A stretch of 64,000 bases of DNA from Rikenella microfusus. Its GTDB lineage: Bacteria; Bacteroidota; Bacteroidia; Bacteroidales; VadinHA17. Both the position numbers and the translations under genes were made by a program. Under the pieces are notes generated by a model. The model saw only the letters and a list, made by a program, of their open reading frames with translations, was not told where the DNA came from and searched no databases. This document shows, one piece after another, positions 44,986 to 52,638 of this stretch (position 1 is the first letter of the stretch; each line of letters begins with the position of its first letter). The stretch is taken from positions 1 to 64,000 of the forward strand of contig DZBJ01000001.1 of the NCBI GenBank assembly GCA_022736275.1. Direction: 5' to 3'.

Positions 44986-46092
44986 CTATTTTGTTTGCCC
45001 CATTATCACGGCGGAGATATCCCCCCAGTACTTTTTATGGAACTTCAGACTGTTCTTGTCAAGCATTGAATGAAGCGTCTTTGGAACATCTTCCGGGGCG
45101 AATTTAACCTTTGAGCGGTCTTCATAGAGTGCTGACACCTCAGGGTGAAACTGCACGGAGAAGACATTAGGATACTTCAGATGCCGAATGCCTTCAATCA
45201 CCTTTCCGTCATCCGAGAGTGCCGTCACCTCGAAACAGGCGGCCACATCCTTCAGCGACTGGTGGTGGCTGCTGTAAACCAGTGGCCGGAGCTTCCTTGA
45301 AACCTTCACGTTACCACCGAAGAAACTGTCGTCAGAGAACTGCACCGGATGGATGTTTGTGCCCATGAAATCCTTGTCCTCCCGGATATTCTGCCAGTAA
45401 TTGCGGTGAAGGTTGGGACGGTCAATTTTTACATTCGTCTCCGGACTGAAGCTTTCGTATAACTGAGCGGGTATATCCTGATAGAGAGTCCCGCCTGCCG
45501 CCACATTCATCGACTGCATGCCGAGGCAGAAGCCGGTGACCACATAATCAGGGTTTTCTTTAAGCAGAGGAGTGAAGGCTGTATTCCGGGTTCCCCCAAG
45601 GAGATGGAACAGGAAGCTCACCTCAAAATAGTGGCGCCCCGGATCGGTTGTTTCAGAATACCAGTTCTCCTCACCGTACACGGCAGGAGGAATGTCCTGT
45701 CCGCCGAAGAAGATCACCCCGACGGAGTTTTCAAAAATCTTTCTGAAATCGTCGCTGCAGGGATTAGGTTTATATACCATATCTTCCTTCAGTGAACCCT
45801 TCACCTCATGCAGGTGCCACCAGGTCAACCCGTTCGTGGCAATATGCTCCGCCGACTTTGAAAAATCATACTCCTGGCTTGAATGGTAGACTCCAACGAG
45901 GCTTATCTCTTCCGGATTGATGTTCAGAAGCTTGTTTTTCACCAGGAATTCGACCACTCCGATATTCCCGACTGTAGGGTTCATCAGGATAAGATACTCC
46001 TGCTCGCGGCTGAAATCCTCCCTGAAAAAGTCCTGTGGGTAAAGTGAGATTACAAGGGCGAGAAATGCAAGGGTTAGAAGCAGTTTTTTCAT
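44986..46092 (-). CDS. Exported gamma-glutamyl-hydrolase-like (C26) glutamine amidotransferase-fold protein
   Basis: 368 aa with a Sec signal peptide (LLLTLAFLALVISLYPQ). The class I glutamine amidotransferase fold is seen from VIFFGGQDIPP onward; the nucleophile elbow GFCLGMQSMNVAAGGTLYQDIP and the HxE end VQFHPEVSAL are intact, so it is probably catalytically competent. Peptidase C26 members cleave gamma-glutamyl bonds (for example gamma-Glu-GABA or folate polyglutamate); the extracytoplasmic location points to a cell-wall or polyglutamate substrate. Fifty bp downstream of a lipoprotein glutamate-racemase homologue. Confidence 0.8.
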   Translation of the reverse strand: MKKLLLTLAFLALVISLYPQDFFREDFSREQEYLILMNPTVGNIGVVEFLVKNKLLNINPEEISLVGVYHSSQEYDFSKSAEHIATNGLTWWHLHEVKGSLKEDMVYKPNPCSDDFRKIFENSVGVIFFGGQDIPPAVYGEENWYSETTDPGRHYFEVSFLFHLLGGTRNTAFTPLLKENPDYVVTGFCLGMQSMNVAAGGTLYQDIPAQLYESFSPETNVKIDRPNLHRNYWQNIREDKDFMGTNIHPVQFSDDSFFGGNVKVSRKLRPLVYSSHHQSLKDVAACFEVTALSDDGKVIEGIRHLKYPNVFSVQFHPEVSALYEDRSKVKFAPEDVPKTLHSMLDKNSLKFHKKYWGDISAVIMGQTK

Positions 46093-46142
46093 GGTGAGGC
46101 TAATTTATAATGAGATGCTTGTTTATATTGTAAATGTAAATC

Positions 46143-47618
46143 TTAATCCATTACTATCCGCTTCTCGGAGGTGAGATATTCCGTTTTGGGGTTATCGCGA
46201 TTGAAAGAGACCATCATATCATAGATGGCAGGAACCTGGTGCGACAGCCGGGTGAGAATATCGCCGGGGATGGTGCTGCGGCTGAAGGGGACAACCCTGA
46301 CATATTCCTGGATTTCACCTGCACTACGGCCGTACTTGTACTCGTAGGTAAACGTCCAGTCATCGCGGAGTTCGACATTCTTATTGGGAGCGTTCGGCAC
46401 GCTGATATAGAATTCGCTGACCCTGTCCGGGCTACTGTTCAGGAGTCCTTTTTCAGAGAGGTGGCTGCAGAGCTGGTCTGCAACAACCGAAGCCGGGTTG
46501 ACGATGATCATATCCTCAGCTATGAGTGACCGGTATATGAACTCTCCGTTCTCAGTGTAATCTCTCAGACGGTTGAATTCATTCCTGAATGTCTCTTCGA
46601 AGAAAGGATAATGAGTACAGGCCATCACGACCGAGTTCAGCGGCAGGGCTCCCGGGGTATTCCTGATCTTTTCCATGAGGCTGACAACGTGAAATGCGAT
46701 GTAATTTTCAACGGAGTTGATCTGAACATTATGAGGGGAGGAGGCACCTCCTTCAAACAGGACTGCGCCGTTTGCAAGGTCAAAGTTGTAGCGGCTCCAC
46801 AGAGCCAGGTCTATCTTCAGTTCACCCGTGCCGGTATCTGAGGGTCCCCTGTACTCTGACCTCGGGACAGTTGCACTCCTGTCGATTGCGTCGGCGCTCT
46901 CGTCTATTGCCTCAGCTATCCCTATTCCTGCCTGCTGGAAAACATTGATTGTCTCCTCCTGACCGTCAGCACGGTTGACTTTATGCAGGGTCTCCGGGTA
47001 GGCGCCTGACTTGACTGTGCCGTCAGTAGCCATGACGGCTATGCTTCCGTTCTCACCGGGTGAGAAATTGGCGAAGGCTCCCTCTGCCCCGGCATCGATA
47101 ACCCCGATGACACCGATATCGGAACCTGCCTCTGCAAGAAAGGTCTTTATTGTGTCAAGAGCATATGCTGTAGCCGTGTTGCATGCGACAACTATTGCCT
47201 TGACAGGACTCTTGTCAGTCTGGTACCTTCGTGATGCAGCCGTCCTGTAATATTTGTTCCCGAGCAGAAACTGAACATCCTTCATCACGTGTTCAATCAG
47301 GAGGGCGATGTTGTTCTCAAGGGCATAATTGCCATACGGCATGTTGGCGAGGTCACCAAGGAAGATATATGATTCCTTTGTCAGTCCTTCATGCTCAATA
47401 ATATCAGCCAGCACCGAAAGTCCACCTGTCCCTGAGTCGAATACTCCAATGGGAAGTGTACAGTTGCCGTCAGGATAGTTTTCAAAATCGACATAATAGA
47501 AACTCCTTTTATCATCCTTGATGGCATTGCTGATGGTAGCAGGACCAATGCATGAGATGACAAGGAGCAGGAGCAAACCTGTGATGAGGGCGAATTTCCG
47601 GATGGGTATGATTTTCAT
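46143..47618 (-). CDS. Lipoprotein of the Asp/Glu racemase (MurI-like) family
   Basis: 491 aa starting at ATG 47618 (MKIIPIRKFAL). The signal peptide ends in LLVISC, a lipobox. The racemase fold begins at LPIGVFDSGTGGLSVLADI, and both catalytic cysteines are present: VVACNTATAYALDTI and VVMACTHYPFFEETF. YIFLGDLANMPYGNYALE replaces the usual YFGDxxxxPYG. Two inserts, one near residues 200-260 (RADGQEETINVFQQAG) and a C-terminal extension of about 100 residues, make it almost twice as long as MurI. Cytoplasmic MurI makes D-glutamate; a surface or periplasmic version has no known role that I can name. Paired with the C26 gene. Confidence 0.8.
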   Translation of the reverse strand: MKIIPIRKFALITGLLLLLVISCIGPATISNAIKDDKRSFYYVDFENYPDGNCTLPIGVFDSGTGGLSVLADIIEHEGLTKESYIFLGDLANMPYGNYALENNIALLIEHVMKDVQFLLGNKYYRTAASRRYQTDKSPVKAIVVACNTATAYALDTIKTFLAEAGSDIGVIGVIDAGAEGAFANFSPGENGSIAVMATDGTVKSGAYPETLHKVNRADGQEETINVFQQAGIGIAEAIDESADAIDRSATVPRSEYRGPSDTGTGELKIDLALWSRYNFDLANGAVLFEGGASSPHNVQINSVENYIAFHVVSLMEKIRNTPGALPLNSVVMACTHYPFFEETFRNEFNRLRDYTENGEFIYRSLIAEDMIIVNPASVVADQLCSHLSEKGLLNSSPDRVSEFYISVPNAPNKNVELRDDWTFTYEYKYGRSAGEIQEYVRVVPFSRSTIPGDILTRLSHQVPAIYDMMVSFNRDNPKTEYLTSEKRIVMD

Positions 47619-47752
47619 ATCCGCGGTATTATTGAAATTTAAAGAGTATGAATTTAGCATCTTGCCCCGATATTATCAATCATTTATGCTGAGGAACAAT
47701 TAACGGTCAGAAATTAAATTGCCGGTATGTGCAGTATAAATCAAAAAACCAC

Positions 47753-47760
47753 TATTTTTG
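47753..47760 (+). promoter_or_regulatory. TAnnTTTG promoter element for arsR
   Basis: Perfect TATTTTTG, directly abutting the palindromic operator at 47761. Confidence 0.7.
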
Positions 47761-47778
47761 TTTCGTCATTTCCCGAAA
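47761..47778. promoter_or_regulatory. Ars operator 1 (TTTCG-N8-CGAAA)
   Basis: TTTCG, 8-nt spacer, CGAAA. It starts at the base after the -7 box and ends 4 bp before arsR ATG 47783, so a bound repressor would cover the transcription start and autoregulate arsR. Confidence 0.78.
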
Positions 47779-47782
47779 TGAA

Positions 47783-48100
47783 ATGGAAATAAAGCAGGCA
47801 AAGAAAAAATATTACACCACTGACCAGGAGAAACTTGCGAAGTATGCCAAGGTCCTGTCACATCCGGTTCGGGTTTTTGTGATGGATTTCCTGGCCAACA
47901 ATCTTGATAAATGCTGTTACAGCGGCGACATGGCAGAAGAGTTGCCGATCGCACGATCAACCCTGTCTGAGCATCTGAAGGAGCTCAAGAAGGCGGGACT
48001 GATACAGGGAGAGATAAATCCGCCGTACATCAAGTATTGCATAAACCGTGAAAATTGGGATGAGGCAAAATTGTTACTAAATAATTTTTTCAAGCGATAA
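47783..48100 (+). CDS. arsR: ArsR/SmtB family metalloregulator
   Basis: 105 aa winged-helix repressor that releases DNA on binding arsenite or a related thiophilic compound. The fold begins AKVLSHPVRVFVMDFLANN; the recognition helix is ARSTLSEHLKELKKAGLI near residues 58-75. Candidate metal ligands are the vicinal Cys-Cys in LDKCCYSGDM (about residues 37-38) plus the Cys in KYCINRENW. The start ATG 47783 follows the operator; an upstream in-frame start at 47729 would put the promoter inside the gene. Four operators with the same half-site lie in the next 3.3 kb. Confidence 0.9.
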   Translation: MEIKQAKKKYYTTDQEKLAKYAKVLSHPVRVFVMDFLANNLDKCCYSGDMAEELPIARSTLSEHLKELKKAGLIQGEINPPYIKYCINRENWDEAKLLLNNFFKR

Positions 48101-48115
48101 AAATTTATTATTGTA

Positions 48116-48133
48116 TTTCGACGTTTTACGAAA
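48116..48133. promoter_or_regulatory. Ars operator 2 (TTTCG-N8-CGAAA)
   Basis: TTTCG (48116-48120), spacer ACGTTTTA, CGAAA (48129-48133), flanked by A and T to give ATTTCG...CGAAAT. A near-consensus TATTATTG box lies at 48106-48113. Confidence 0.8.
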
Positions 48134-48152
48134 TGAAAGGAGAATAACAGAT

Positions 48153-48386
48153 ATGGAGATTAAAATTCTGGGCCCGGGGTGCCCGAAATGCAAATCCCTG
48201 GAAAAAATGACTCGTGAAGTAGTGGAGCAGAACGGAATAGAAGCTACTGTTTCAAAAGTTGAGGATATCGTAGCCATTATGAACTGCGGTGTGTTGTCAA
48301 CCCCGGCCCTTGTGGTCAATGAGAAGGTTGTTTTAAAGGGACGTGTGCCTACTGTCGATGAACTTAAAAAGTTATTAGTCAACTAA
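48153..48386 (+). CDS. Small thioredoxin-family protein (redox-active disulfide protein 2 type)
   Basis: 77 aa cytosolic thioredoxin-like domain with the CPKC redox motif in ILGPGCPKCKSLEKM and the cis-proline loop VLSTPALVVNEKVVLKG. ATG 48153 has an AAAGGAGA ribosome-binding site 10 bp upstream, which is unusual strength for this phylum; the frame's upstream codons overlap operator 2 and are not coding. First gene of the group behind operator 2. Likely supplies reducing equivalents or a thiol carrier for arsenical handling. Confidence 0.88.
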   Translation: MEIKILGPGCPKCKSLEKMTREVVEQNGIEATVSKVEDIVAIMNCGVLSTPALVVNEKVVLKGRVPTVDELKKLLVN

Positions 48387-48400
48387 ACAATGATAGAGCA

Positions 48401-48841
48401 ATGAAAAAGGTAATCTGGATTTCAATAATTGTTGTCGCTCTGGTCGCTTTTTTGGCATTCCGGCCGGATAGCAAAGCCGATGTAAGTTCTGACGCTGCCA
48501 TAATTTCGGCTGATAAAATAGAGGTATATTATTTTCACTTCTCGCGCAGGTGCGTGACATGCCTTGCTGTAGAGAACAAAACGCAGGAGGCTATTGTTGC
48601 TCTGTATCCTGAAGCATACAGTAAGGGCAAGATCACCTTCGCCTCGGTTAATCTGGAGGATGAGAAGAGTAAACCGGTTGCTGAAAGAGTAAATGTCACT
48701 GGTCAGGCACTGATAATCATGAGCGGAGAATTCAAAAAGGATCTTACAGCCGAGGGTTTCTTGTATGCCAACAACAATTTTGAGAAGCTCAAGTCTGAGA
48801 TCAAAAAGGTGATGGACCCCCTTGTCAAAGACCTAAACTAA
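48401..48841 (+). CDS. Membrane-anchored thioredoxin-like protein with CxxC
   Basis: 146 aa: one N-terminal membrane segment (VIWISIIVVALVAFLAF), then a periplasmic thioredoxin-like domain with the CVTC motif in FHFSRRCVTCLAVENK. Similar proteins often sit with ArsG-type permeases. Lies 14 bp after the small thioredoxin gene and 5 bp before the permease gene, so the three are one unit. ArsE/ArsF-like role is inferred from this arrangement. Confidence 0.75.
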   Translation: MKKVIWISIIVVALVAFLAFRPDSKADVSSDAAIISADKIEVYYFHFSRRCVTCLAVENKTQEAIVALYPEAYSKGKITFASVNLEDEKSKPVAERVNVTGQALIIMSGEFKKDLTAEGFLYANNNFEKLKSEIKKVMDPLVKDLN

Positions 48842-48846
48842 TCCTC

Positions 48847-49548
48847 ATGGAACTGCTTCAGAGGATTCTTGAGAATTCTCAGTACTCATTTATAACGGCG
48901 GCTATATTGGGGCTGATGACTGCCATCAGCCCATGTCCGCTGGCAACGAACATATCTGCAATCGGTTTTATCAGTCGTGATCTGACTGACCGCAGGAGGG
49001 TCTTTCTCAACGGGTTGGTTTATACTCTGGGTAGGGCCATAACATATGTTGGTATTGCGTTGATCATATTTTTTGGCGCCAGCCAGATGGATATCTCAGG
49101 ATTGTTCCAGAAATGGGGAGAGAAACTGCTGGGCCCTGTACTGATCCTGATAGGCCTCTTTATGCTCGACTTCATCAAAATTAAGCTTCCGGGCGGAATG
49201 GGTTCATTCACAGAGAAGATAGGAGAGAGGGGCAGAAAGAGTTATCTGAACACACTGCTGCTTGGTATTCTGTTTGCCATGGCCTTCTGCCCATACAGCG
49301 GTGTTTTATATTTCGTTATGCTTATGCCTATGACAGTTGCAAGTACTGTAGGGTTATATCTGCCTCTGATATTTGCCATTGCAACAGGTATACCAGTGAT
49401 CATATTTGCATGGCTGCTGGCCTATGCCGTCAGCAATGTAGGCAAAATGTACAGCCGGATCAAAACCTTTGAGATATGGTTCAGGAGGGTGGTTGCTGTA
49501 CTGTTCATCGGAGTGGGAATATACTATATAATAAAAGCCATATTTTAG
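48847..49548 (+). CDS. ArsG-type permease (CcdA/DsbD-like membrane protein)
   Basis: 233 aa with six membrane segments. The cysteine-proline pairs GLMTAISPCPLATNISAIGF (segment 1) and FAMAFCPYSGVLYF (segment 4) are the CcdA/DsbD-type conserved cysteines. Proteins with the ISPCPLATN signature are annotated as ArsG-family efflux permeases for aromatic aminobenzylarsenicals. Together with the two upstream thioredoxin-like genes it resembles the arsEFG arrangement described in Shewanella. A general role in moving electrons across the membrane is the alternative. Confidence 0.78.
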   Translation: MELLQRILENSQYSFITAAILGLMTAISPCPLATNISAIGFISRDLTDRRRVFLNGLVYTLGRAITYVGIALIIFFGASQMDISGLFQKWGEKLLGPVLILIGLFMLDFIKIKLPGGMGSFTEKIGERGRKSYLNTLLLGILFAMAFCPYSGVLYFVMLMPMTVASTVGLYLPLIFAIATGIPVIIFAWLLAYAVSNVGKMYSRIKTFEIWFRRVVAVLFIGVGIYYIIKAIF

Positions 49549-49567
49549 AAAAAAAATTATGCATGTA

Positions 49568-49585
49568 TTTCGGGTTTTTACGAAA
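49568..49585. promoter_or_regulatory. Ars operator 3 (TTTCG-N8-CGAAA)
   Basis: TTTCG (49568-49572), spacer GGTTTTTA, CGAAA (49581-49585), again as ATTTCG...CGAAAT. It ends 19 bp before the permease start. The adjoining -7 box is weak (TATGCATG). Confidence 0.8.
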
Positions 49586-49604
49586 TGATAATAGATAAAT
49601 TAAA

Positions 49605-50954
49605 ATGGAATTAAAGAAAGAACTGAAGATCCTGTTATGGATCACCGTAGTGTTTGTTTTTGCGTTTTTCATGCCGATTGAAAGTGTCCGTTTCAACACT
49701 GCAGTCACGGCTACCTTTGATCTGGTGAAATGGTATGCCAGGGAACATGTGATTCTATGTCTGTTGCCTGCATTCTTTATTGCCGGTGTTATCTCGGTAT
49801 TTGTCAGTCAGGGTTCGGTCATCAAATATTTTGGAGCAAATGCCAAGAAGTGGCTGGCCTATACGGTCGCTGCAGGTTCGGGAACATTACTGGCTGTATG
49901 CTCCTGTACCATTCTTCCGCTTTTTTCAAGCATTCACAAGCGTGGCGCAGGCCTCGGCCCGGCAATAGCTTTCCTCTATTCCGGTCCGGCCATAAATATT
50001 CTTGCCATCATCCTTACTGCCCGGATACTTGGGTTTGAAATGGGTGTTGCCCGGGTCATCGGAGCAGTCTCCTTCAGCATTATAATCGGATTGATGATGT
50101 CGCTGATTTACAGGAAGGAAGAGAAGATCAAAAGGGAAGATCAGATGAATGTTATTCCGGAACCTGAAAAGAGACCTATGTGGCAGACAATGACACACTT
50201 CTTTACCCTGGTCATCATCCTGGTCTTTGCCAACTGGGGTAGTCCGTCAGCAGATGACACTTCAAGTGCATGGTACTATATCTTTACATACAAGTGGTAC
50301 ATAACGGGATTTTTCAGCCTGGTGCTTGCATGGTCTCTGATTAAGATCCTTAAGATTAAATGGCAGTGGGTATTGGCTGCAGCAGTTGTGACTGTGGTAT
50401 CTGTGCTCTTGTCTAATGCTCTGATTGATAGTGATAAGCTCAGGCCACTGGTGCCAATGATAGTGGGAATAACTGCGCTCAGCGTAATTACACTGCTTGA
50501 TAAGGAGGATGATGAAAACCGCGAGTGGACACTCTCCACATGGGGATTCGCCAAGCAGATAATTCCTCTTCTTGGAATCGGTGTTGTAATTGCCGGTTTC
50601 CTACTTGGTTCAACACACGACGGTCAAAGCATACCGGGTGTAGTCCCGAATGAGTGGATCGCAAAACTGGTTGGAGGAAATTCAGTATTTTCAAACTTCT
50701 TCGCCTCCATTGTAGGAGCTTTCATGTACTTTGCCACGCTTACCGAGGTTCCTATACTGCAGGGACTGCTATCTTCCGGGATGGGTAAGGGTCCTGCCCT
50801 TGCTCTTCTCCTTGCCGGCCCTTCTCTCTCGCTGCCCAATATGCTTGTTATAAGAGGTATTATAGGAAATCAAAAGACTGCAGTATACGTCAGTCTTGTT
50901 GTTGTAATGGCGACAATTTCAGGACTGATCTATGGAGCAATTTTTCAGCATTGA
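49605..50954 (+). CDS. ArsP_1/DUF318 family permease
   Basis: 449 aa with about ten membrane segments; two homologous halves contain LLPAFFIAGVISVF / LLGIGVVIAGFLLG and GPAIAFLYSGPAINILAI / GPALALLLAGPSLSLPNM. A cysteine pair in VCSCTILPLF near residue 98 matches the arsenical-binding cysteines of ArsP trivalent organoarsenical permeases. Behind its own copy of the ArsR operator, so induction by arsenicals is likely. Longer than the approximately 310-residue Campylobacter ArsP; it fits the larger permease subgroup often seen with arsR in Bacteroidota. Confidence 0.83.
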   Translation: MELKKELKILLWITVVFVFAFFMPIESVRFNTAVTATFDLVKWYAREHVILCLLPAFFIAGVISVFVSQGSVIKYFGANAKKWLAYTVAAGSGTLLAVCSCTILPLFSSIHKRGAGLGPAIAFLYSGPAINILAIILTARILGFEMGVARVIGAVSFSIIIGLMMSLIYRKEEKIKREDQMNVIPEPEKRPMWQTMTHFFTLVIILVFANWGSPSADDTSSAWYYIFTYKWYITGFFSLVLAWSLIKILKIKWQWVLAAAVVTVVSVLLSNALIDSDKLRPLVPMIVGITALSVITLLDKEDDENREWTLSTWGFAKQIIPLLGIGVVIAGFLLGSTHDGQSIPGVVPNEWIAKLVGGNSVFSNFFASIVGAFMYFATLTEVPILQGLLSSGMGKGPALALLLAGPSLSLPNMLVIRGIIGNQKTAVYVSLVVVMATISGLIYGAIFQH

Positions 50955-51007
50955 CATTGTCTTTTCCAGTATCTGCGACACCGGGCCCCGGAATATTAAA
51001 AATTACA

Positions 51008-51025
51008 TTTCGTAAATATACGAAA
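51008..51025. promoter_or_regulatory. Ars operator 4 (TTTCG-N8-CGAAA)
   Basis: TTTCG (51008-51012), spacer TAAATATA, CGAAA (51021-51025). Unlike site 1 it sits upstream of the -7 box, in the -33/-7 spacer. Confidence 0.8.
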
Positions 51026-51029
51026 CGAT

Positions 51030-51037
51030 TATCTTTG
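51030..51037 (+). promoter_or_regulatory. TAnnTTTG promoter element for arsC
   Basis: Perfect TATCTTTG only 4 bp before arsC ATG 51042; the transcript probably starts at or next to the ATG (leaderless). Confidence 0.7.
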
Positions 51038-51041
51038 ACAG

Positions 51042-51467
51042 ATGAAAATACTGATTCTTTGTACGGGAAACAGCTGCCGGAGCCAGATGGCTCACGGCTT
51101 TCTGCAGTCGTTTGATGAAACGATTTATGTGAGATCCGGCGGTACTGAGCCTGCAGCCCGTCTTAATCCAAAAGCCGTTAAGGTCATGGCTGACCTTGGG
51201 ATTGACATCAGCCATCACACTCCTCACCTGGTTGATGAATACCTCGATGAGGAGTGGGATTACGTGATCACCGTATGCGATCACGCCAATGAAACATGTC
51301 CGGCCTTCTTCGGTAAGGTGAAGCACCGTCTCCACCTCGGGTTCGAAGACCCCTCGCACGCTACCGGTACTCCCGAATTCATTCACAGCGAGTATATCAG
51401 GGTCCGTGATGAAATAAAGACGACTTTTCAGAAATTTTACGGCGAACACCTGCAGAACATTAACTGA
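51042..51467 (+). CDS. arsC: Arsenate reductase, thioredoxin-coupled (LMW-phosphatase type)
   Basis: Reduces arsenate to arsenite. 141 aa. The P-loop with nucleophile is ILCTGNSCRSQMAHGF (Cys 7), and the second/third redox cysteines are in ITVCDHANETCPAF near residues 79-86, the spacing of the S. aureus-type enzyme. The catalytic Asp is in LGFEDPSHATG. Start ATG 51042 is certain from homology. Downstream acr3 completes the reduction-and-efflux pathway. Confidence 0.95.
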   Translation: MKILILCTGNSCRSQMAHGFLQSFDETIYVRSGGTEPAARLNPKAVKVMADLGIDISHHTPHLVDEYLDEEWDYVITVCDHANETCPAFFGKVKHRLHLGFEDPSHATGTPEFIHSEYIRVRDEIKTTFQKFYGEHLQNIN

Positions 51468-51533
51468 ATCCGGTATTTACAGTATCACAGTTTCAGACAT
51501 TAAGCCACACATCAACGGTTGACAGCCCTAGTC

Positions 51534-51561
51534 GCAAATCGCAAATCACAAATCTCAAATC
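51534..51561. repeat. Heptamer array, unit NCAAATC
   Basis: GCAAATC, GCAAATC, ACAAATC, TCAAATC in perfect 7-bp register, immediately upstream of acr3. It separates arsC and acr3, which are otherwise co-directional. Confidence 0.9.
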
Positions 51562-51567
51562 CTGATT

Positions 51568-52638
51568 ATGCCCTCAAAGAAACGTCTCAGATTGCTCGAC
51601 AGGTACCTTACACTATGGATAATTCTGGCTATGGCGGCCGGAGTGGTTATTGGCTGGATCAGTCCTGAAATTGCCGGTTTCTGGAACAGCCTTTCCAGCG
51701 GGACAACCAACATACCCATTGCCATAGGCCTGATAGTAATGATGTACCCGCCCCTGGCCAAGGTAAAGTATGAGGAGTTGCCTGATGTCTTCAGGAACAC
51801 GAAGATACTGGGACTCTCTCTTGTGCAGAACTGGGTCATCGGACCCATCCTGATGTTTTTCCTGGCAATCCTGTTCCTGAGGTTAAACACTGATTATATG
51901 TACGGCCTGATCCTGATCGGGCTTGCCCGGTGTATCGCCATGGTGATCGTCTGGAATGATCTGGCAAAGGGTGACACCCAGTACGCAGCAGGACTGGTTG
52001 CCTTCAACTCAATTTTCCAGGTTCTCTTCTTCTCTGTTTATGCCTATGTTTTCATAGCCGTCCTACCCGGATGGTTCGGTCTGCCGGTTAATGATGCCGT
52101 CGAGCAGATAACGATAGGCCAGATTGCAGAAAGTGTCTTTATATACCTCGGAATACCCTTCATAGCAGGGTTCCTTACCAGGTTTGTCCTGATCAGGGTA
52201 AAGAGCAAGGAGTGGTATCATACCAAATTCATTCCGAAGATCAGCCCGCTTACACTGGTAGCACTGCTGTTCACCATTTTCGTCATGTTCTCCCTTAAGG
52301 GCGAGTATATTGTGAAAATACCGCTTGACGTTGTACGCATTGCGATCCCGCTTGTAATTTATTTCGTTGTTATGTTCTTTGTCTCCTTCTTCATGAGCAG
52401 GAGGGCAGGTGCAAATTATGAGCAGACAACAACTTTATCATTCACGGCAGCCAGCAATAATTTCGAACTGGCAATTGCTGTAGCTATCGCGGTCTTCGGC
52501 ATCAATTCAGGCGAAGCCTTTGCGGCAGTGATAGGCCCGCTGATCGAGGTGCCGGTGATGATAGCCCTGGTCAATGTTGCTCTCCGGATGAAAATAAAAT
52601 ATTTCCGGTCAGGCGGGGGAATACTTATTTCCTCCTGA
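51568..52638 (+). CDS. acr3: ACR3 family arsenite efflux transporter
   Basis: 356 aa, ten membrane segments; exports As(III) using the proton gradient. The conserved cysteine is in [22 protein letters not shown], and [20 protein letters not shown] plus [17 protein letters not shown] are the ACR3 signature regions. It has no operator copy of its own and is separated from arsC by a heptamer array, so it is probably co-transcribed from the arsC promoter. The 3' end overlaps by 14 bp the end of the convergent DUF1295 pseudogene. Confidence 0.94.

Follow-up and report, generated by a model that had tools for sequence, protein, structure and literature searches.

A lipoprotein branch of the glutamate racemase family in Bacteroidota and its possible place in D-glutamate salvage outside the cytoplasm

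Why would a bacterium carry a glutamate racemase that appears to be built for export? Bacterial cell walls and poly-gamma-glutamate both contain D-glutamate as a major D-amino acid, and to our knowledge its reclaiming by bacteria is only partly known. The question is raised by a 64,000-nt stretch of a Rikenella microfusus genome (GenBank assembly GCA_022736275.1, contig DZBJ01000001.1; hereafter, the window). Here a gene for a MurI-type glutamate racemase with a lipoprotein signal (P0001; 46143..47618, minus strand, complete ORF, 491 aa) lies beside one for a predicted exported peptidase C26/PuuD-SpuA-like gamma-glutamyl amidohydrolase (P0002; 44986..46092, minus strand, complete ORF, 368 aa). 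A first interpretation made from the sequence alone (hereafter, the sequence-only reading) had joined the two products in one pathway of racemization and gamma-glutamyl cleavage.

The signal peptide II region of P0001 spans residues 1-23 (47550..47618, minus strand) and ends in the lipobox VISC (residues 20-23), as seen in the sequence, by pattern scan and by alignment. The lipobox cysteine, Cys23, was invariant in 12 relatives and at least 90% conserved in 25 homologues; cytoplasmic MurI, unlike this family, has no lipobox-type N-terminus. By its signal peptide, P0001 is a predicted bacterial lipoprotein. In Bacteroidota, an acidic run after the lipobox cysteine is a described signal for surface export. 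The residues following Cys23 (IGPATI) contain no such run and therefore favour the periplasmic face, and P0001 is probably anchored in the outer membrane and turned towards the periplasm.

The sequence-only reading had described a 491-aa lipoprotein with both MurI catalytic cysteines, and this was borne out by the coordinates, the complete ORF, Cys23, Cys146 and Cys334. Its two large insertions were roughly right: relative to MurI, we found three (residues 120-135, 245-300 and 347-364) and a C-terminal extension (448-491). Because of these insertions and sequence divergence, P0001 scored significantly, yet below the cut-offs, against PF01177 (26.1 bits, cut-off 31) and NCBIfam TIGR00067 (98.6 bits, cut-off 146.65); we therefore call it MurI-like rather than a MurI equivalog. 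Annotation by curated families would overlook it or rank it low; a phmmer search of the PDB matched glutamate racemases (1ZUW, E 1e-20).

To evaluate the active site, we aligned 36 full-length lipoprotein homologues with 13 cytoplasmic MurI from relatives. The MurI catalytic residues were intact in 35 of the 36 lipoprotein homologues, down to ~35% identity. In P0001 the motifs are D61/S62, P94-Y95-G96, C146-N147-T148, T198/T201 and C334-T335-H336, and each of these residues was kept in at least 35 of the 36. Position 239 is Asp in all 36 lipoprotein homologues and Glu in all 13 cytoplasmic MurI, the Glu being presumably E152 of RacE, and the exchange could alter specificity or rate. Six further residues (Y98, N301, Y306, K428, Y429 and R431), some of them in or beside the insertions, were invariant in the lipoprotein clade only.

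The AlphaFold model of P0001, based on a 25-sequence alignment, had a pLDDT of 91.3 and a pTM of 0.88. When it was searched against the PDB with Foldseek, ranks 1-47 were glutamate racemases. With VIA-align, ranks 1-31 were glutamate racemases, RacE1 matched with Z 29.0 (2.2 A over 258 residues), and the best aspartate racemase reached Z 17.6. Motifs and model together place P0001 in the two-domain Asp/Glu racemase fold, predicted to be nearest to glutamate racemases; identity as an aspartate or hydantoin racemase was ruled out by Z 29 against at most 17.6 and by the MurI-type CTH. Between congeners, dN/dS was 0.08-0.19 for the racemase gene and 0.03-0.16 for the C26 gene where computable, with some dS values saturated and no YN00 value for four pairs; both genes are thus under purifying selection. 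The intact motifs and dN/dS also rule out a pseudogene. That P0001 is an exported MurI-type racemase, and apparently an active one, is well supported. The single exception among the 36 homologues, that of the 1.5-Mb genome G628 (L102:6899-8431), has an open frame, with S and D in place of the two catalytic cysteines and the T-H pair lost, and is apparently a dead racemase fold that has been retained.

P0001 is separate from the genome's supply of D-Glu for peptidoglycan. An ordinary cytoplasmic MurI of 268 aa is encoded elsewhere in the window genome (G000:C18), which rules out that P0001 is a duplicate or a misread cytoplasmic MurI; this separate enzyme and the lipobox both set P0001 apart from cytoplasmic D-Glu supply. 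In a maximum-likelihood tree the lipoprotein racemases formed one side of a branch with 100/100 support, apart from cytoplasmic MurI. This exported branch of the family is real and looks new. It is sparse: it was found in 24/117 genomes of the window's family, 10/393 sampled genomes of the order and 2/395 sampled genomes of the class (the window genome being one of these two), with 10/148 genomes in family f44 and 4/16 in family f114; a scan of genome contigs with P0001 returned near relatives only. The racemase tree follows taxonomy only loosely, f1 sequences being scattered among those of f44, f114 and f9, a pattern that points to a degree of horizontal transfer or to numerous losses. A 3.9-kb contig of G504 (L096) has a racemase whose surrounding gene order is that of the window's genus, though the genome belongs to another genus, and the contig is probably mis-binned. 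The f9 homologues (L099, L100 and L102) sit in a conserved housekeeping setting with PurM-like and 3'-5' exonuclease-like genes and, in L099 and L100, a glutamine synthetase III gene close by; perhaps their role differs from that of racemases in scavenging contexts.

The C26 neighbour was as the sequence-only reading had portrayed it, signal-peptide-bearing with Cys and His/Glu intact. P0002 has a hydrophobic, signal-like N-terminus, its C189, H316 and E318 were invariant in 17 relatives, and SSHHQ is intact. It scored 90.1 bits against PF07722 (Peptidase_C26; cut-off 20.5), has the Cys-His-Glu triad of that family, and is structurally nearest to PuuD, Lin1909 and SpuA. The gene lies downstream of, and co-oriented with, the racemase gene, and the spacing of 50 bp that had been claimed is exact (46093..46142, minus strand). 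The only terminator-like site on the minus strand of the pair is inside the C26 gene, and such sites were no commoner than expected by chance.

Within the window's genus, C26 was present in 19/22 genomes (the window's own counted) and the racemase in 12/22, one of the latter (G019) as a degraded remnant. The two genes were adjacent in all 11 genomes in which the contig spans enough for the test, the G019 remnant included. Seven congeners have C26 without the racemase (G001, G003, G004, G008, G014, G015 and G018); in six of them it occupies the same syntenic place near a pntB or ArsR gene, and G014 differs. About half of the congeners have lost the racemase, or have it in decayed form, and kept C26. 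The window also encodes, on the plus strand (47729-52638), an ArsR-type regulator, a thioredoxin-like protein, DsbD_2, an ArsP permease, a low-molecular-weight phosphatase/ArsC-like protein and an SBF (Acr3-like) transporter, an arsenic-resistance-like operon that in the congeners examined is largely syntenic beside the C26 gene.

Outside the genus, the racemase occurred without C26 in G025, G031, G034 and G049, C26 without the racemase in G059 and G044, and both genes unlinked in G030 and G042; in none of the loci read there did the racemase stand beside C26. Given this restricted adjacency and the seven congeners with C26 alone, we regard the pair as a genus-level arrangement of which C26 is the steadier member. 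As to the co-occurrence in other Bacteroidota that the sequence-only reading proposed to test, linkage was seen in the testable congeners and in no locus read outside the genus, where the pair as a general module is unsupported. The proposal of one shared pathway is weaker than that of an exported racemase: adjacency within the genus speaks for it, whereas C26 alone in seven congeners, and single or unlinked genes elsewhere, speak against it.

Outside the genus, another partner came into view. In three groups the racemase adjoins a homologue of D-aminoacylase or N-acyl-D-glutamate deacylase. The two genes are directly side by side in G368, G971, G1035, G940, G1003, G942, G1032, G815, G891 and G487, and two genes apart in G467 (f1). 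In the PDB these amidohydrolases come closest to D-aminoacylase (1M7J) and N-acyl-D-glutamate deacylase (3GIP), with E values of 1e-59 to 1e-78, and the linked copies fall in at least three branches of their tree (f44; f114 with G487; G467). Genomes have 1-5 D-aminoacylase-type genes each, and a rough Poisson estimate puts chance proximity, at a distance of up to two genes, in three or more of 12 hand-picked lineages at ~2.8e-6, shared descent inside groups having been removed by hand only. D-aminoacylase is a better-supported partner of the racemase than C26.

The neighbourhoods share further genes. Seven of the ten racemase-bearing f44 genomes have the order PF00144 serine hydrolase, racemase, D-aminoacylase-type amidohydrolase; the shared f44 operons have SusC and SusD upstream, and several also a small lipoprotein. 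In G368, G971 and G1032 there is a 4-bp overlap between the racemase gene and that of the amidohydrolase. A gene for gamma-glutamyltranspeptidase (GGT) lies directly downstream in the racemase operon of G1032, after a frame-broken racemase in G933, and adjacent to but divergent from the racemase in G031. The f114 genomes G815 and G891 have D-aminoacylase next to the racemase; in G876 and G886 of the same family, PF00144 genes run divergently from it; the racemase-bearing G876 also has three D-aminoacylase homologues in tandem (L157:1589-6537). Among f1 genomes, G487 has the order racemase, D-aminoacylase; G467 has a racemase split between contig ends, a PF00144 fragment, D-aminoacylase and a GltP-like symporter; in G030 a GltP-like symporter adjoins the racemase, and in G468 a PF00144 gene. 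In G025 (f1) an enolase-superfamily gene resembling L-Ala-D/L-Glu epimerase is two genes away. That locus (L104:1354-10887), a possible cluster for D-Glu peptide metabolism, also encodes a peptidase C69, a class III aminotransferase, a DUF6206 protein and a BioF/Kbl-like PLP enzyme. In G042 (L103:6291-7902), a racemase with an in-frame loss of its middle, including the first catalytic Cys, lies beside a truncated D-aminoacylase, and the two seem to decay together. The loci read in G049, G945, G530 and the f9 genomes showed no D-amino-acid-related neighbour.

In the window genome (G000), single searches for partners turned up a GltP-like symporter (C81), two homologues of GGT (C95 and C156) and a D-aminoacylase (C11) whose gene diverges from a SusCD pair, all unlinked to the racemase. 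The D-aminoacylase of the window's genus is likewise unlinked and belongs to another tree branch than the linked copies, so extrapolation of the pathway to the window genome is indirect. The gamma-glutamyl and D-Glu theme of the sequence-only reading survives, carried by genes other than C26.

A theme shared by the neighbours is that amino acids are freed from D-amino or glutamyl compounds, acylated or gamma-linked, and then imported; salvage is the simplest account. With moderate confidence, we propose that P0001 is an exported, MurI-derived, cofactor-independent glutamate racemase that serves the scavenging of D-Glu-containing amides and not cell-wall synthesis. Exported amidohydrolases would free D-Glu from such amides in the periplasm, D-aminoacylase homologues cleaving N-acyl-D-Glu, and GGT (or, in the window's genus, the C26 hydrolase) cleaving gamma-glutamyl bonds. 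The lipoprotein racemase, if active and oriented as predicted, would then turn D-Glu into L-Glu in the periplasm for uptake by a glutamate symporter, and in some relatives the SusC/SusD pair of the same operon may carry the substrate across the outer membrane. Muropeptides, poly-gamma-glutamate or N-acyl-D-Glu could be the natural source. More tentatively, we suggest a periplasmic pathway of Bacteroidota in which an exported MurI-type racemase converts D-Glu freed by D-aminoacylase and gamma-glutamyl hydrolases to L-Glu for uptake, SusCD-fed and polysaccharide-utilisation-locus-like in some lineages, so that D-Glu of cell walls or poly-gamma-glutamate is recycled outside the cytoplasm.

Other explanations were weighed against salvage. 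The exported enzyme might racemize or epimerize N-acyl-, gamma-glutamyl- or peptide-bound Glu (or Asp) instead of free Glu, with the insertions forming an altered pocket. The clade-only invariant residues and the universal E-to-D exchange at 239 would fit this, as would the neighbours, whose substrates are in every case amino acids in acylated or gamma-linked form; but the MurI substrate-contact motifs DSG, PYG, CNT and CTH are all unchanged, the whole core matches glutamate racemase well above aspartate racemases, and an adjoining deacylase would itself yield the free amino acid, and we consider this rather unlikely. That the racemase and C26 form a dedicated two-enzyme module for gamma-glutamyl substrates, for example muropeptides or poly-gamma-glutamate, draws on their consistent adjacency in the genus, the intact C26 triad, a fold nearest to the gamma-glutamyl hydrolases PuuD and SpuA, and the comparable neighbour role of GGT in G1032, G933 and G031. 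The congeners that keep C26 alone, the unlinked genes of G030 and G042 and the lack of any linkage outside the genus make it improbable.

The reactions of MurI are reversible, and the enzyme could, in analogy to periplasmic broad-spectrum racemases, run in the synthetic direction and make periplasmic D-Glu for cell-wall editing, signalling or an exopolymer. Periplasmic racemases of another fold do release D-amino acids (PMC7890096, PMC5898190), but the neighbours here are hydrolases and importers (D-aminoacylase, GGT, SusCD and GltP) with no synthetases or exporters, and the periplasmic racemase of P. putida itself works in catabolism (PMC6034422), so we hold this to be quite improbable. The lipoprotein might also keep the racemase fold for binding or structure, as the open frame of the G628 homologue could indicate, but the conservation of every catalytic residue in 35 of 36 homologues across deep divergence, together with purifying selection in the genus, leaves this extremely improbable.

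An exported MurI copy that in relatives shares operons with exported enzymes able to liberate D-amino acids suggests D-Glu salvage outside the cytoplasm in Bacteroidota. If true, such a racemase, exported and with an operon of its own, would offer a direct route for D-Glu that needs no cofactor, and the reading makes a testable prediction for species with the whole operon. It is also a warning: D-amino acid metabolism is miscounted when cell-wall biosynthesis is the label given to all MurI-like genes. In the open-licence literature we found no description of an exported or periplasmic MurI-type racemase or of its operon with D-aminoacylase (weak evidence of absence), and nothing on poly-gamma-glutamate in Bacteroidetes that describes such a racemase pathway.

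Among known systems, cytoplasmic MurI/RacE (PDB 1ZUW, 2DWU) shares with P0001 the whole-core fold, the two-Cys active site and the substrate motifs. P0001 differs in its lipoprotein signal, length (491 against ~270 aa), insertions and Asp at 239, in being additional to the genome's cytoplasmic MurI, in belonging to a clade with scavenging-type gene neighbours, and in falling below the NCBIfam and Pfam cut-offs. BsrV and P. putida Alr depend on PLP and have the alanine racemase fold. They resemble P0001 as racemases outside the cytoplasm, BsrV being the periplasmic broad-spectrum racemase of Vibrio (PMC7890096) and Alr a periplasmic enzyme serving Lys/Arg catabolism (PMC6034422), whereas they act on Lys/Arg and others and P0001 has the cofactor-independent MurI fold. 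PuuD and SpuA (PDB 6VTV, 7D4R) have the triad and fold of P0002, which is exported and larger (368 aa), has N- and C-terminal additions and is 16-18% identical to them. Homologues of D-aminoacylase and N-acyl-D-glutamate deacylase (1M7J, 3GIP), neighbours of the racemase in relatives and unlinked in the window genome, differ from those enzymes by sharing an operon with an exported racemase. DgcN-DgcA, like the proposed pathway, leads from D-Glu to L-Glu for catabolism, but by an irreversible, multi-step racemisation via dgcN with no direct racemase (PMC12363236); DgcA, named N-acetyl-D-Glu racemase in NCBIfam, belongs to the enolase superfamily, unlike the MurI-type P0001.
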